From contig CAMHMH010000002.1 of NCBI GenBank assembly GCA_946186205.1, positions 248,001 to 312,000 of the forward strand: a stretch of DNA of 64,000 nt, given 5' to 3'. Source of the DNA: an uncultured Fretibacterium sp. (lineage in GTDB: Bacteria > Synergistota > Synergistia > Synergistales > Aminobacteriaceae). A program made the translations under genes and the position numbers. Positions 14,115-25,362 of this stretch are shown here, one piece after another; position 1 is the stretch's first letter, and every line of letters starts with the position of its first letter. Below the pieces are notes generated by a model. The model was not told the DNA's origin. It saw only the letters and a list, made by a program, of their open reading frames with translations, and did no database searches.

Positions 14115-14144
14115 GCAGGCCGTGAAGAGCGGTCTGTTTTTTTT
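14115..14144 (+). terminator. Rho-independent terminator after the helicase gene
   Basis: CAGGCCG pairs with CGGTCTG around TGAAGAG, followed by eight T. Confidence 0.85.
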
Positions 14145-14153
14145 GCCTTGCGG

Positions 14154-14159
14154 TATAAT
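14154..14159 (+). promoter_or_regulatory. Upstream -10 element (TATAAT) of the lipoprotein gene
   Basis: GCGGTATAATTTACACG lies directly after the terminator and 27 bases before the poly-C promoter. It could give a constant low level of transcript alongside the switchable promoter. Confidence 0.4.
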
Positions 14160-14185
14160 TTACACGTAAACTTTTCATGAAGCTA

Positions 14186-14218
14186 TTGACAATACCCCCC
14201 CCCCCCTTACAGTATAAT
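14186..14218 (+). promoter_or_regulatory. Promoter with poly-C spacer: TTGACA-21-TATAAT
   Basis: Perfect -35 (14186-14191) and -10 (14213-14218) hexamers are separated by 21 bp, of which 12 are a C homopolymer. Sigma-70 promoters work best at 16-18 bp, so loss of three to five C would bring the elements into ideal spacing. Homopolymers in the promoter spacer switch the outer-membrane protein genes opc and porA in Neisseria. Confidence 0.7.
14195..14206 (+). repeat. Poly-C tract (12)
   Basis: Twelve consecutive C, the longest homopolymer noticed in the window, placed exactly between -35 and -10 hexamers. Exact length may be uncertain from read errors or real population variation. Confidence 0.9.
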
Positions 14219-14263
14219 GCGCAATATTGCAATCCCTAATTTTACGCAAAAGGCGGTAATATT

Positions 14264-15412
14264 ATGTTTACACGCAAAAATTTGTATTGGCTCTTCATGA
14301 TGCTTCTTGTGCTTTCGTGCGTGCGTTCAGGGTGCGGAGGTTCGAGCGGCGGCGATGTCTCAATCAATGGCAACAACGGAACGACTCAAAGCCAGGACAT
14401 CACACCGACTCCCGAAACACCCACAAGCCCGGACAATCAATCGACACCACAGACTCCCACAACGCCCAATACACCAACTACAACAATCCCATTCACCGCG
14501 CTCACAGGAACGTGGCAAGCCTCAAACGCTACAGGTTCAGCGACAGCAAACGGAACAACTTTCACCATGACAATGAGCACGAGCCACGCTAACACTGTAA
14601 CATTCAGCGGCGTAACATCAAGCGGAACATTGCAGGCTTCATCACAAATCTATTGGGACGCTAACGGAAACGGAGTCTCTCTCACAGATATTCATGACAA
14701 TCTCGGAAGCTCGCACGAGATGACCTTCCAGAACTTAAGCGCAAACACTTGGCAAATGTACCGAGCGAGGAGAGGCGACAATCCCGAAATCACAACGATA
14801 ACTTTCACGTCAGCAACAACAGCAAAAGTTGAGCGGGACGGATATTATGATGAGTATCAGAACGCTCACTATAAGATGACCTACACAATCACAAAGCAGA
14901 GCGACTCAACAACAACACAGGAGACTCCCGCGGCATATGACCTCAACGGCACATGGCGTATTACAGCCGGGACACTTACATACGAGAACGGCACAACAGC
15001 AAATTATGTGCAAGGGAGCATGACGGCGGATCCATTCACGATTGCGCTTTCTGAGACAGGCACAGGCACAGGCAAATACGTACTCGCTTTGAGTGCTTCG
15101 TCAGGCGGTTTCAAGAAAGAAGGCGCAGGTTATGGCAAAGCGAATTTTGAGGGGCTTTCATCGCAGGTGAGAGTCGTATGGGGAACAAGTGAAGACTGGC
15201 GGGAAATTGACAGCACATACAGCAGTACATATACACTCACTGAGCCTAATACGTATCATGCTAATTATGGTATTATATTCGGCAATATCACAGAAGCGCA
15301 GTATCAGATGACAGACGCATCAACAGTACGCTACACTCAGTCAGGCTACAGCATTGACGGCGATTACTCCCAGAAAGTAAATGTTGAGCTGACATTGACT
15401 CGCGTAAACTGA
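14264..15412 (+). CDS. Surface lipoprotein with duplicated beta-rich domain
   Basis: Start ATG 14264 is behind AAAGGCGGT. The N-terminus is a lipoprotein signal (MFTRKNLYWLFMM, hydrophobic, then LVLSC; a second Cys in SGCGG). A Pro/Thr-rich linker (TPTPETPTSPD) and two similar domains of about 150 residues follow, starting LTGTWQASNA and LNGTWRITAG, each with FTMTMST/FTIALSE strands and a final YTIT or VELTLTR strand. They resemble lipocalin-like or domain-of-unknown-function beta barrels, but I recognise no named family. It is probably exposed at the cell surface and controlled by the poly-C promoter. It forms a single transcription unit. Confidence 0.7.
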   Translation: MFTRKNLYWLFMMLLVLSCVRSGCGGSSGGDVSINGNNGTTQSQDITPTPETPTSPDNQSTPQTPTTPNTPTTTIPFTALTGTWQASNATGSATANGTTFTMTMSTSHANTVTFSGVTSSGTLQASSQIYWDANGNGVSLTDIHDNLGSSHEMTFQNLSANTWQMYRARRGDNPEITTITFTSATTAKVERDGYYDEYQNAHYKMTYTITKQSDSTTTQETPAAYDLNGTWRITAGTLTYENGTTANYVQGSMTADPFTIALSETGTGTGKYVLALSASSGGFKKEGAGYGKANFEGLSSQVRVVWGTSEDWREIDSTYSSTYTLTEPNTYHANYGIIFGNITEAQYQMTDASTVRYTQSGYSIDGDYSQKVNVELTLTRVN

Positions 15413-19581: not shown

Positions 19582-22500
19582 TTAATGTTTCGTTGCTTTT
19601 CGTGCGAGCATAAACGCCGCGGCCATTGTGATGAAGATTCCTGAGACTGACGAACAGCCGCCGCCCCCTCCGCCTGAGCTTGAAGTTTGTTCGCCCGGAG
19701 TCGGTGTTACGGGTTCAGGGTCAACATTTATTTCTGACGTGAAAACTTTTATGCATGCGTTGCAGGGTCTTTCGGAGCTTCCCTGCATTATCGTTTTTCC
19801 GTCCTTCCAGTCTGAAAGCCTTGGGGTTGTCTCTTTCTCCGCAAAATAGCTCTCGCCTACATGGACTGATGCCCCGCTGAAAGTTACAGGGTCTTCAACC
19901 GCGCTGTAATATTCGTACGATGTCTCATCTGAAAGTTTCACGATGACAGAGAAATATTCACCGTCTTCAACATTCACCGGGCTGTTTATGCTGACAGTAT
20001 GATAGCCGCAGTAAGTGAGGTTGCCAGAAGCCGCAGGTGTTGCGGGGACTCCGGGGTTCACTGGCTGTGCTTTTCCGAGCGTGTTGATATATATCTCGTA
20101 ATTAACGTTGTTGTTATGCGTGTGGAATGCGACCTCGTGAATCGTTTCGTTCCCTTCTGCCATGAAAACATTTGCGGCCCATTGGTAATTGATTGCGTCC
20201 GCTCCGCCTAGCTGGTCATATCCTCTTTGCCTGAGACCCTGTATCTTTTTGTCGGAAATGAACGCTGCCACATTGTAAAGGTACTGGCTGTAGGAGATCC
20301 AGAAATATCCGCCGTCTGCAAAATATGTGTTCCATGAATTTTTTGCGAGCCACGCGCCTTTTCCGACTGGCGTGGTTATATCGTCGTCCCATCCCGTTAT
20401 GATTACAGCATGGCCGAACCCTCTCTTATCGCTGTAGAATGTTGTCCCCGACAAGCCGGAATGATCGTACCTCATTGATGCCCGCAAAGCTCCGTATTCA
20501 GTTATGAGGCGTTTTATTTCGTCCCTGTTCTTTTCTGTGATGCCTCCCACGATATAAACATCTTTAAGCCTCAGAGGGTCAGAATAATCTTCAGGGTACT
20601 TCCCTCCCGTGAGGCTCTCTGCGTTCTCTGCCTGTGTGTAGGGAAGCTCATTCTCTGAAGCCGTTCCCGCCCTCGACAGGAAAGCCAGCGATACTGAAAG
20701 GCTTCCTCCTTGGTAAAGTACTCCTTTGCCGGGCTCGTTGAGAGGGAATGAATATCCTTCTCTCGTGTCTTTGTACGCGAACCAAGCCTGATGGAGCTCG
20801 GACAGATCCGGCGCGTAATTTCCGGGATAACGGTAAACATAACTTGTCTCCATAGCTCCAAGAGACGCGAAAGACCAGCAAGTCTCGTAAGAACCCTGAT
20901 CCCTTACCTGCGTAACTTTTCCCAGAGTCCTCGGGTCATACTTCGCAGGCAAATTTTCAGCGGCGTAAAAAGCAAACGCATCGGCAAATGATGATGATGA
21001 TACAGCCGGGTTGTCTGAAAGGTGCGAGTAGTCAGCAGGGTCAGGATTTTCACCGTAAAATTCGACTCCCTCATAATATTTTGACGGATCACTGCGCCAT
21101 TCTAAATAGTCAAGGTTGAGCGGGGCAAATTCTGCTGAGACCGGCTCCCATTCACATATCAGTCCGCACACAGCACCATCATTTGACGCATCGTCCCAAT
21201 ATCCCGCGCTGTCTGTCTGTGAACCCGGCATTATTCCGTAAGCCTGCAAGTAATTCCCTGAACCGTCAGGCTGTCCGCCGTAAAAATTTGTGTAGGAAAA
21301 TTCCTCGCCCGTTATCCATTTCCATGTGCCTGATGTCTTTTCACCGCCAAGCCAGAAAACATAATACTCACTTGGCGCGCTCCGCAGCAATTCTTTCACA
21401 GCGTCTTGCTCTTCCCGGCTCGTTATCGTCGCAAGATGTCCGCCGAGAGTCTCGCAGTACAGCTTTGCTTCCTCCCAGTTCATAGCGCGGTCAATGATCG
21501 TATACTTGTGCCCCTTCCATGCCGTGCTGAAGGTGTTGTACACTCTCGAGTCTTCTTTTGTTTCAGCCTGTGAGAGATCTATATTCACTGTCATATTGTG
21601 CCCCCCGCTGGTGTAAGTCCATTGCACTCTTTCAGGGCGCGACGTGAACTGAAGAATGCCCGCTGACAATGTAAACTCTACTGGATTTCCGCCGCTGTCA
21701 TAAGCCTGAATGCCTGAGACATTAGCGAGGCTTCCGGACTTCACGTAGTCGTTAAGGTTTATGCTGTAAATGCTGCCTGAATAATTTATCGTTCCTGCTG
21801 TAAGACTCTGAGTCCCTAAGTCCGCGCTTACAAGCTGAGTGTTCTTTGAGAGGTCAATTTCTGCGAGGTCATTGCTTCCGCAGTAAAGCTCCCTGAGATT
21901 CGTATTGCCGCTTAGGTCTATTGCTGAGATATTGTTCGACTGAAACATGAGGCACTCAAGAAGAGCCAGCCCGCTAACGTCGAGCGAGGTCAGCTGGTTG
22001 CGGTCAACAGCAAGATACTTCAGCTTAGTGTTTTTGCTTACGTCTATGCTTGTGAGTCTGTTATGGCCGTTTATGTTTGCGTTTGCTCCTCCTAATTCGA
22101 GATACTCAAGCTCAGTATTATTCGACACGTCAATTTGAGAGAGTCGGCAGTCCCAAGCGTCAAGATATTTCAGCGCGGTGTTGTTCGTAACGTCAAGAGT
22201 CTTTATGTCATTGCTTCCGCAGTCGAGGCTGACAAGTGCCGTGCAGTTATCAACGTTCAGTGAGGCAAGCTGATTCCTGCTGCATGAGAGATTCAACAGT
22301 GCTGTGCAGTCAGCAAGGTCTAACGCTGTGAGTCTGTTGCGTTTGCAGGATAACTCTTTGAGATTTCGTTTGCCTGAAAGATCAAGCGCGGTGATGCGGT
22401 TAGTATGCTCGGCAGTATCGTCGGCATTAGTACCGCAGTTCAGAATCTCAAGGGCATTGCATCCCGTAACATTCAGCCTGGTCAAGTTGTTGCTCCGTGC

Positions 22501-25362
22501 GTAAACAGTCGTCAAGGCCGTGCAGCCCTCAAGGTTAAGGCTCGTTATTCTGTTGCTCCGGCAGTTGATTTCCTTTAACGCCGTGAAGCCGTGAAGGTCA
22601 AGCGCGCCCGTTATGTTATTGCGATGGCAGAGAAGCTCCCTTAGCTTTGAGTGAGTGCCGAGAGTGAGAGAAGTAACTTTGCTGTCATGGCAGTGAAGTA
22701 TTTCAAGGTTAGGGCAGTTCCTTACGTCAAGTGCTTCAAGGTCAGTGCTCCAGAAGCGAAGGTCGACAAGCGCAGGATTGCTGCTGACATCGGCTGCCTT
22801 TATGCGGGTCCTGTTGTAGCACAAAAACTTAAGGTTAGTATTGTTGCTGAAGTTTCCCGCCGTGATATTGTTGCCGCTAACGTCGAGGCTGATTAACGCA
22901 GGATTGTTGCTTACGTCGAGTGCCGTCAAATTATTGTCGCAGGGAAGAAGGCTCTCAAGCTCTGGGCATTTGCTGACATCAAGCACTGAAAGTTTGTCGC
23001 CTATGCAGTGAAACATTTTGAGCTTTGTATTATTGCTGAGGTCGATTGATGTTATATTGCTGCCGTCAATGAAAAGATCTTCCAGCTTGGGATTCTTCGT
23101 TACGTCGAGTGCCGTCAGTTTGTTCTGACTGTAGAGAGTCGAGAAGCCGTGCGAGCCGTCAGCATTGTAATTGTTCTCGTCAATGAGGTTGTTCAGGTCA
23201 AGCCCTTTGAGTTCGGGATTGTTCGTTACGTTAAGTGCTGTGAGGCTGTTATTCTCAGCTCCAAGCCATTCAAGATATAAATTCCTGCTGAGGTCGATTT
23301 CTGAAATGTTATTCCGTGCACAGTCAATCCCTCTGAGCTGTGTGAAATACTCAATGCCCTTCAAAGACCTTATGCCCATCTCAGGAACGTTTATGTAAAT
23401 GATCCCTGCAATTTCAGAGTCGCTTAGTACTCCGTTGTTGTCCGAGTCAAAATTATTGCTGACATATGCCCTGAAAATATCATCGGGGAAATTCGCGGCG
23501 TTAATCTCAGCACTGCCGGAAGAAGCCGAAATTGTTACGTTCATGTCCCGGGACTGGCAGCCCGTCGCGTAATTGTAGGTAACTTTTGCCGGGATTGAAA
23601 CGAAACGCGCAACGCCTTCCGAGTATGCCGACGTGATACTGTTGTCAGAGGAGTCGAATCCTTGAACGCTTGAGACATTCGCAATTTTGTCCGGGGAAAT
23701 GTACTCGCTCAAGTCTAACTGATAGGGATATGATGAATCTTCTGCGGCTGTGATTGCGAGTCCTCTTCGTGTCTGTGAGTCGCAGTAAAGAGTATCAAGA
23801 GGCTGTATATTCCCCAAGTCAAGAACGGCCAGAGCGTTATTGTTGCATCCTAAATATTCAAGAGCGTTGTTGTTCGCAAGGTCAAGGACAGAGATATTAC
23901 TGCTTCCGCAGCTTATGAACGTCAGAAGAGTATTGCTGCTCACGTCCAAAGCCTGAAGGGACTCATTGTGATAGACATCAAGCTCTTCAAGTTTCGTATT
24001 CCTGCTCACGTCGATATGAACGAGCTTGTTTCTTCCGCATCCTAATGTAACTAACTCAGTGTTATGACTCAAATCGATTTCGGCCAGATTATTTTCCCAG
24101 CAGTCAAGATACTTAAGGGATGTGAAGTGCTCAATGCCTTTCAGTGAAGATATATTGCTTCCTCGCAGGGTTATTCTCTCAGCGTTCGCTATTTCGTCAT
24201 TGCTGAGGAGTCCGTCATTGTTTGTGTCAAAATTATTGCTGACGTACGACCTGAAATTGTCATCAGAAAAGACAGCCGATGTGATTGATACAGGCTCAGA
24301 AAGTGAGGGAGGTGATGAAGGCTCGCTGCCTGAAGCTGAAATTGTTGCCCTCATTGCCGCATCACTTGAGACACTGTAGCCCGTGCTGTAATTGTACCTG
24401 ACTGCCGCCGGATATGCCGTGAACTGTGCTATGCCTCCTGAATACACTGTAGAAATATTTGCGTTTGAAGAGTCGACACCCTGAACGCCTGAGACATTTG
24501 CGAATTTGTCCGGGCTTATGTACTCGCTGAAGTCAAGCTGATAAGGATATGCCGTGCTGCCTGAGCTGTTAATGCTTAAGGGGGTAACATTCTGCGAGCC
24601 GCATGAAAGATAAGTCAAAGCGGAGTTATTGCTTGCGTCAAGTTCTGCGAGCCTGTTTCCTTTGCATGACAAAGTAACAAGAGCGGTGTTATTGCTAACG
24701 TCGAGAGCTGAGAGTCTGTTATCCCTGCACGACAAATAAACCAGTGCTGTGTTGTTGCTAACGTCGAGTGCTTCGAGCTGGTTGCTTGAGCAGGCCAAGT
24801 GAGTCAGTGCTGTGTTGCTGCTTACGTCAAGTGCTGAGAGCGAGTTATTGTAGCATGAAAGATAGGTCAATGCGGTATTGTTGCTTAAGTTAAGTGATGC
24901 GAGCTGATAGTTTCTGAAGCAGGACAGGCGAGTCAATGCGGTGTTGCTGGCTGTGTCAAGTGTCGTGATTTGATTCTCTTCACAGTGAAGCTCAGTCAAT
25001 GCAGTGTTGCCACTCACGTCCAGTACCCCCAGCTGGTTATACTCGCAGTGCAGTACCTGTAAAGCAGTGTTATGACTCACATCAAGTGCCGCAAGCTGAT
25101 TGTTTGAACACCAAAGCACAGTCAAGGCAGTGAAATGTTCTATTCCGCTGAGCGAGGATATTCCCAAGCCGCTGACATAGATACCTGTAGCCCCGGCGAT
25201 TTCAGAATCACTCAATGCCCCGTTATTGTCGGAGTCAAAATTGCTGCTGACGTACGACCTGAATGCAGAGTCCGGGAAATTCGCCGCATTGATAGCCACA
25301 TCCGCGCATGCACACGTAACAATCATGCACACGAGAATCATTGCGCAAAGAATCTTCTTCAT
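19582..25362 (-). CDS. Giant surface protein: EF-hand/LRR modules, C-type lectin, papain-like protease, Synergist-CTERM
   Basis: The 1926 residues start behind AGGAGGAAG with a signal peptide (to CACA near 20). Three modules follow, each opening with INAANFPD-FRxYVS-NFDSDNNGxLSDSEI (an EF-hand/dockerin-like calcium loop) and continuing into LRRs of 21 residues of the form LxxLxCSxNxLxALDVSxNTA. A C-type lectin domain (about 1275-1405; WEEAKLYCETLGGHLATI, WKWITGE) comes next. A C1 papain-like protease follows with Gln1489, Cys1495 (RDQGSYETCWSFA), His1651 (GHAVIITGWDD) and Asn1675 (NSW), then the lectin-like domain typical of bacterial C1 peptidases. The tail has a Gly run, Cys1903, a hydrophobic helix and ARKATKH. 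It is likely a surface-anchored, self-binding protease acting on host or dietary glycoprotein. Uninterrupted catalytic residues suggest activity. Confidence 0.88.
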   Translation of the reverse strand: MKKILCAMILVCMIVTCACADVAINAANFPDSAFRSYVSSNFDSDNNGALSDSEIAGATGIYVSGLGISSLSGIEHFTALTVLWCSNNQLAALDVSHNTALQVLHCEYNQLGVLDVSGNTALTELHCEENQITTLDTASNTALTRLSCFRNYQLASLNLSNNTALTYLSCYNNSLSALDVSSNTALTHLACSSNQLEALDVSNNTALVYLSCRDNRLSALDVSNNTALVTLSCKGNRLAELDASNNSALTYLSCGSQNVTPLSINSSGSTAYPYQLDFSEYISPDKFANVSGVQGVDSSNANISTVYSGGIAQFTAYPAAVRYNYSTGYSVSSDAAMRATISASGSEPSSPPSLSEPVSITSAVFSDDNFRSYVSNNFDTNNDGLLSNDEIANAERITLRGSNISSLKGIEHFTSLKYLDCWENNLAEIDLSHNTELVTLGCGRNKLVHIDVSRNTKLEELDVYHNESLQALDVSSNTLLTFISCGSSNISVLDLANNNALEYLGCNNNALAVLDLGNIQPLDTLYCDSQTRRGLAITAAEDSSYPYQLDLSEYISPDKIANVSSVQGFDSSDNSITSAYSEGVARFVSIPAKVTYNYATGCQSRDMNVTISASSGSAEINAANFPDDIFRAYVSNNFDSDNNGVLSDSEIAGIIYINVPEMGIRSLKGIEYFTQLRGIDCARNNISEIDLSRNLYLEWLGAENNSLTALNVTNNPELKGLDLNNLIDENNYNADGSHGFSTLYSQNKLTALDVTKNPKLEDLFIDGSNITSIDLSNNTKLKMFHCIGDKLSVLDVSKCPELESLLPCDNNLTALDVSNNPALISLDVSGNNITAGNFSNNTNLKFLCYNRTRIKAADVSSNPALVDLRFWSTDLEALDVRNCPNLEILHCHDSKVTSLTLGTHSKLRELLCHRNNITGALDLHGFTALKEINCRSNRITSLNLEGCTALTTVYARSNNLTRLNVTGCNALEILNCGTNADDTAEHTNRITALDLSGKRNLKELSCKRNRLTALDLADCTALLNLSCSRNQLASLNVDNCTALVSLDCGSNDIKTLDVTNNTALKYLDAWDCRLSQIDVSNNTELEYLELGGANANINGHNRLTSIDVSKNTKLKYLAVDRNQLTSLDVSGLALLECLMFQSNNISAIDLSGNTNLRELYCGSNDLAEIDLSKNTQLVSADLGTQSLTAGTINYSGSIYSINLNDYVKSGSLANVSGIQAYDSGGNPVEFTLSAGILQFTSRPERVQWTYTSGGHNMTVNIDLSQAETKEDSRVYNTFSTAWKGHKYTIIDRAMNWEEAKLYCETLGGHLATITSREEQDAVKELLRSAPSEYYVFWLGGEKTSGTWKWITGEEFSYTNFYGGQPDGSGNYLQAYGIMPGSQTDSAGYWDDASNDGAVCGLICEWEPVSAEFAPLNLDYLEWRSDPSKYYEGVEFYGENPDPADYSHLSDNPAVSSSSFADAFAFYAAENLPAKYDPRTLGKVTQVRDQGSYETCWSFASLGAMETSYVYRYPGNYAPDLSELHQAWFAYKDTREGYSFPLNEPGKGVLYQGGSLSVSLAFLSRAGTASENELPYTQAENAESLTGGKYPEDYSDPLRLKDVYIVGGITEKNRDEIKRLITEYGALRASMRYDHSGLSGTTFYSDKRGFGHAVIITGWDDDITTPVGKGAWLAKNSWNTYFADGGYFWISYSQYLYNVAAFISDKKIQGLRQRGYDQLGGADAINYQWAANVFMAEGNETIHEVAFHTHNNNVNYEIYINTLGKAQPVNPGVPATPAASGNLTYCGYHTVSINSPVNVEDGEYFSVIVKLSDETSYEYYSAVEDPVTFSGASVHVGESYFAEKETTPRLSDWKDGKTIMQGSSERPCNACIKVFTSEINVDPEPVTPTPGEQTSSSGGGGGGCSSVSGIFITMAAAFMLARKATKH

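Follow-up and report, generated by a model that had tools for sequence, protein, structure and literature searches.

What does a run of 12 C do between a perfect −35 and a perfect −10 hexamer? The question arises in a 64-kb stretch of DNA (the window) from an uncultured gut Synergistales bacterium with a genome of 2.75 Mb in 19 contigs. An earlier note had taken the 21-nt spacer to be too long for normal activity and had proposed that loss of four C, giving 17 nt, switches on an exported lipoprotein gene by the device known from porA and opc of Neisseria. The two hexamers, TTGACA and TATAAT, are indeed 21 nt apart with C12 between them, as can be read directly at 14186–14218. The features of the locus are these:

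14115–14137, + strand: terminator-like stem of the upstream DEAD-box helicase gene
14154–14159, + strand: second TATAAT, without a −35 partner, conserved in the relative G010
14186–14191, + strand: −35 hexamer TTGACA
14192–14194, + strand: ATA between the −35 hexamer and the C-run
14195–14206, + strand: C12 homopolymer within the promoter spacer, presumed slippage site
14207–14212, + strand: TTACAG, from the C-run to the −10 hexamer
14192–14212, + strand: complete 21-nt spacer, ATA-C12-TTACAG (mode of the family, 20 nt)
14208–14213, + strand: alternative weak −10, TACAGT, 16 nt from the −35 and overlapping TATAAT, also present in the G010 ortholog and in one G022 promoter
14213–14218, + strand: −10 hexamer TATAAT (G010 has TAAAAT here)
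14264–15412, + strand: 382-aa exported protein, probable lipoprotein, with a signal-like N-terminus and a conserved Cys in ...SGCGGSS

The promoter is located between the terminator-like stem, which probably insulates it, and the 382-aa open reading frame, with TATAAT 45 nt before the latter. No −35-like hexamer was found 16–18 nt upstream of the second TATAAT; the letters there are GGTCTG and belong to the stem, and the suggestion that this TATAAT gives a base level of transcription is a guess. C12 is the sole homopolymer longer than 8 nt in the window, the next longest being C6, A7, and T8. Dinucleotide shuffles gave an expectation of 0.37 C8 matches per window, and no shuffle reached the five overlapping matches seen; chance does not come close to explaining the run in this stretch.

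The arrangement resembles known slippage promoters to different degrees. The window promoter, like that of porA, has a homopolymeric G/C tract between intact −35 and −10 elements ahead of a surface protein gene. For porA of Neisseria meningitidis the expression is known to be graded, with surface expression higher at 11G than at 10G (2-fold) and 9G (13-fold) (PMC3639595). The tp0126 promoter of Treponema pallidum is also alike in that a poly-G tract lies between the −35 and −10 of an outer-membrane protein gene. Transcription from tp0126 is best at a total of 17 nt, as is that from poly-G porA (PMC7864442), whereas the relatives of the window promoter described below are held at 20 nt and mostly have C on the coding strand, as judged from sequence. 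The opc gene of N. meningitidis, which also encodes an outer-membrane protein, has a poly-C tract of similar length (~11–12; PMC3447861), but that tract covers the −35 region and is considered to work through a regulator (PMC7864442), whereas the TTGACA of the window is separate from its tract. The proposed kinship thus stands for the porA type, which recurs in this genome and genus, and is loose for opc. No report of slippage promoters in Synergistales/Synergistetes or Mucispirillum was found in the literature searched.

We asked how often this promoter recurs among relatives. TTGAC with at least eight C starting a few bases after it was found at 34 sites in 16 of the 43 species of the genus (one match with a reversed-pattern control), and TTGAC, at least five C, and an exact TATAAT at 35 sites in the genus (control, none); a search of 180 genomes of the order found the strict form in this genus alone. 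Removal of duplicates left a family of 46 promoters, all sharing TTGAC since the pattern required it; some are recent copies, and the 46 sites are not fully independent. Their −10 was picked by match alone, with its distance from the −35 disregarded. The resulting spacers are 11 nt (one promoter), 14 (two), 16 (one), 17 (one), 19 (seven), 20 (22), 21 (seven), 22 (two), 23 (two), and 25 (one), so that 36 of the 46 fall at 19–21 nt, with a mode of 20, across C-runs of 5 to 15; a looser choice of the −10 put one promoter at 18. Random re-pairing of C-runs with flank lengths never gave so tight a spread, and the 37 pure tracts alone were likewise tight (p = 5e−5, with one site re-read at a distal −10). 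Free drift of the tract would make the spacer follow the C-run one to one; instead, the flanks partly compensate. This recurrence also bears on whether the run is an assembly artefact or a neutral run without regulatory role. The assembly is a draft, its contig C5 breaks off at a run of 18 nt, and consensus tract lengths are uncertain, but the family recurs in independent assemblies with −35, −10, and spacing conserved and with controls near zero, which makes an artefact or a neutral run scarcely credible.

Tracts that are interrupted, and hence hardly slippable, keep the same length. Their spacers in the genus are 20, 20, 20, 19, 19, 20, 20, and 21 nt (8/8 at 19–21), examples being CCCCCCTCCC, CCCCCCACCC, and CCCACCCCCC. 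In G010, which has the only close ortholog of the window promoter, the tract is itself interrupted, the spacer is exactly 21 nt as in the window, and the gene behind it is intact. Were 20–21 nt no more than a dead state, one would not expect frozen promoters of this kind to keep their hexamers before intact genes. Poly-G spacers behave similarly (seven of nine with a clear −10 are at 19–20 nt), and which base the coding strand carries is therefore not the point; a sequence-specific C-site for a regulator, which we considered, is disfavoured by the same equality of length. Ordinary promoters of the genus differ. Among the matches listed for six genus genomes (two further genomes lie outside this count), perfect TTGACA/TATAAT pairs are most often 16 (43), 17 (24), or 18 nt (43) apart, 110 of 165 in all, and only 13 of the 165 fall at 19–21 nt versus 10 of 10 promoters with a G/C run (Fisher 2e−10; among matches listed).

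These data bear directly on the proposed switch, in which 21 nt is OFF and contraction to C8 (17 nt) is ON. The optimum of 17 nt in tp0126 and porA (PMC7864442) and the prevalence of 16–18 nt among the ordinary promoters listed favour it. So does an E. coli library of consensus promoters with random spacers, where spacers of 20 nt and above are clearly weaker than those of 15–19 nt (PMC8695583), a weakness that argues against 20 nt as a strong state. However, only one of the 46 genus promoters is at 17 nt and none at 18 (one with the looser −10 choice), interrupted tracts stay at 19–21 nt, and losing four bases takes several slips and would end in a C8 run that is much less mutable. The rule that 21 nt is too long and 17 nt is ON did not survive, given that poly-C and poly-G spacers of the genus are held at 19–21 nt whatever the number of C, and we regard this switch as unlikely. 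With 21 nt one base above the family set point, loss of a single C would be a likelier change of state than loss of four.

A different way to obtain a normal distance is that TACAGT, 16 nt from the −35, is the true −10 and TATAAT incidental, which would make the promoter an ordinary one. TACAGT gives 10 of 12 matches at 16 nt and is conserved in G010, but most family members lack it and keep TATAAT at 20 nt; we think this very improbable.

The reading we prefer, with a probability of about 0.5, is that the window promoter is of the σ70 type and slippage-variable in the manner of porA, with a set point shifted to ~20 nt, and that ~20 nt would be its working distance. Slipped-strand mispairing during replication would add or remove C within C12. 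We infer such slippage because orthologous sister promoters differ in length: one has C10 and a 20-nt spacer in G000, C11 and 21 nt in G010, and C11 and 20 nt in G065, and another has C12 and 22 nt in G029 versus an interrupted tract and 20 nt in G031. Within one population, a changed number of C would alter the distance between −35 and −10 and, by analogy with porA, transcription of the lipoprotein gene; the window allele at 21 nt would be slightly off the peak, with C11 as the nearest stronger state. Comparison of sequences puts the set point of the family at ~20 bp rather than 17, and its conservation at 20 nt goes against the usual rule by which ON and OFF tract lengths are predicted.

The reason for a working distance of 20 nt would probably be that a G:C run of 8–14 bp is axially shorter than ordinary B-DNA. 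For pure tracts with outliers dropped, spacer length equals 17.4 + 0.26 × C-run; the intercept (17.4) is the normal distance, and the slope is near the 0.13–0.22 per bp needed by an A-like rise of 2.6–2.9 Å. As a sign of an axially shortened run, this fit is suggestive only, and the slope could equally reflect partial drift. Helix shortening also leaves a cluster of 15/16-nt poly-C spacers in other phyla unexplained. The idea that a G:C homopolymer moves the optimal distance from 17–18 to ~20 bp, by ~0.25 bp per C, is accordingly a tentative one, which we would sooner doubt than accept. If it were true, a whole class of phase-variable promoters would have been misread as ‘too long’.

We then looked beyond the genus. 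A search of GTDB species genomes for TTGACA, at least nine C, and TATAAT returned at least 117 stretches, in Clostridia, Mucispirillum, Treponema, Helicobacter, and others. Among the matches listed (121 sites), spacers of 15/16 nt occur at 62 sites, 19/20 at 31, and 17/18 at 13. One Oscillospiraceae genome (G075) has 9 of its 12 spacers at 19–20 nt, with runs of C9–C12. A second type of poly-C promoter, with C9 and a spacer of 15/16 nt, occurs in Mucispirillum and in small-genome Clostridia (loci L094, L109, L125, and L113); in Mucispirillum it is nearly invariant (TTGACATTC9ATGATATAAT), and 17/18 nt is rare there.

A poised state is a serious rival to a working distance of 20 nt. The active range may be ~15–19 nt, with poly-C promoters selected at the edge of that range or one base outside it, where a single slip is most effective, so that 20 is low and 19 high, and 15 high and 14 low. 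The E. coli profile fits (high at 15–19, lower at 20 and above; PMC8695583), as do the concentration of pan-bacterial spacers at 15/16 or 19/20 nt (93 of the 121 sites listed, with 13 at 17/18) and the strong preference of poly-C spacer promoters for lipoprotein genes. Against it, the spread in the genus is symmetric about 20, spacers of 19 nt being as frequent as those of 21, and interrupted tracts stay at 20 nt, while selection for switchability alone would be a second-order force. We take this to be a somewhat improbable account, though one to be weighed seriously.

MerR-type promoters typically have spacers of 19–20 nt, and the length itself could therefore point to an activator that untwists a long spacer, or to a dyad-binding regulator, with the C-run merely part of the site. 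In 14 C-tract promoters of the genus, GTCAA occurs 9 nt after TATAAT and mirrors TTGAC. The window promoter lacks GTCAA, however, its spacer ATA-C12-TTACAG contains no inverted repeat of the kind expected of a MerR-type operator, and poly-G spacers are of the same length as poly-C ones; regulation of this kind is quite unlikely here. The 14 promoters, in which the 9-nt distance is exact, include loci L212, L221, L227, and L284 of G033. These four copies stand before different genes and are alike only between their TTGAC and GTCAA ends, as though copied as a 46-bp promoter cassette. An invertible promoter was also considered and set aside for the window, where the TTGAC/GTCAA pair is absent; in relatives that have the pair no change of orientation was seen, and the gene is read the same way wherever an open reading frame was identified.

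Returning to our preferred reading, a slippage-variable promoter with its set point near 20 nt, we asked what it would control. The 382-aa product is, as had been proposed, an exported and probably lipid-anchored protein. Its Cys in ...SGCGGSS is shared by G010, G004, and G031, but the residue at −3 to the Cys is polar, which makes the lipobox non-canonical, and ‘probable lipoprotein’ is therefore the right strength. It matched no Pfam family and one NCBIfam model far below the cut-off. Some members of the genus have homologs; the 24 relatives searched outside it have none. The G010 ortholog, 81% identical, is a shorter, intact, single-domain version of 219 aa, and we rejected its interpretation as a pseudogene. 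A homolog in G004 (locus L003, contig C64) has an in-frame TAG within its N-terminal part. Elsewhere in the window, 19582–25362 on the − strand encodes a 1926-aa exported protein with leucine-rich repeats and C-type lectin, papain-like peptidase, and lectin-like domains.

The association of poly-C spacers with lipoproteins holds on the wide bacterial scale. By criteria of our own and among the matches listed, signal-like starts follow 61 of 91 pan-bacterial poly-C promoters versus 133 of 557 background genes, and lipoboxes 33 of 91 versus 21 of 557; in other gut phyla the same promoter type thus precedes lipoprotein genes far above chance. Inside the genus, however, the enrichment was not significant (signal-like starts, 14/28 versus 43/132), and no canonical lipobox was found. 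Poly-C promoters or tracts at the genus loci L203, L206, L217, L240, and L061 precede one membrane-protein family (SKCHxIIHxAA...AQIPGSD), of which the one member tested had no Pfam match.

Finally, pattern searches of the genome holding the window found 23 C/G runs 9 nt long or longer. Six are in spacers of the form TTGAC-N2–3-Cn-(−10) (L064, L066, L070, which is the window, L071, L073, and L081), and about a dozen are in coding sequence, including genes for capsular polysaccharide synthesis, for a lamin-tail/CotH protein, for a glycosyltransferase, and for the specificity subunit (HsdS) of a type I restriction system. At the tract lengths of the assembly, the capsule, CotH, and HsdS genes are each split across two frames, which we read as an OFF or alternative state. 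Together, promoter and coding tracts have the look of a typical slippage repertoire, here in one gut Synergistales genus. The genome of Helicobacter canadensis likewise has G/C tracts both in promoters and in coding sequence (PMC2823697); the species belongs to another phylum, and read-level variation has been shown there, whereas the tracts described here are known from the assembly. The capsule and CotH genes, on contig C1 (L063 and L068), are split by C/G runs of 15 and 13 nt, respectively, and are apparently OFF in the assembly. In the HsdS gene (L074:976–2569, contig C3), a 19-nt C/G run lies between two Methylase_S domains in different frames and is a candidate switch of methylation pattern. 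Contig C5 stops at an 18-nt G run (L080) close to where an amino-acid permease frame ends, and the assembly may have broken at this tract. A gene for a serine recombinase similar to Mpi/XisF lies ~200 nt from a C15 run (L076, C3:176952).
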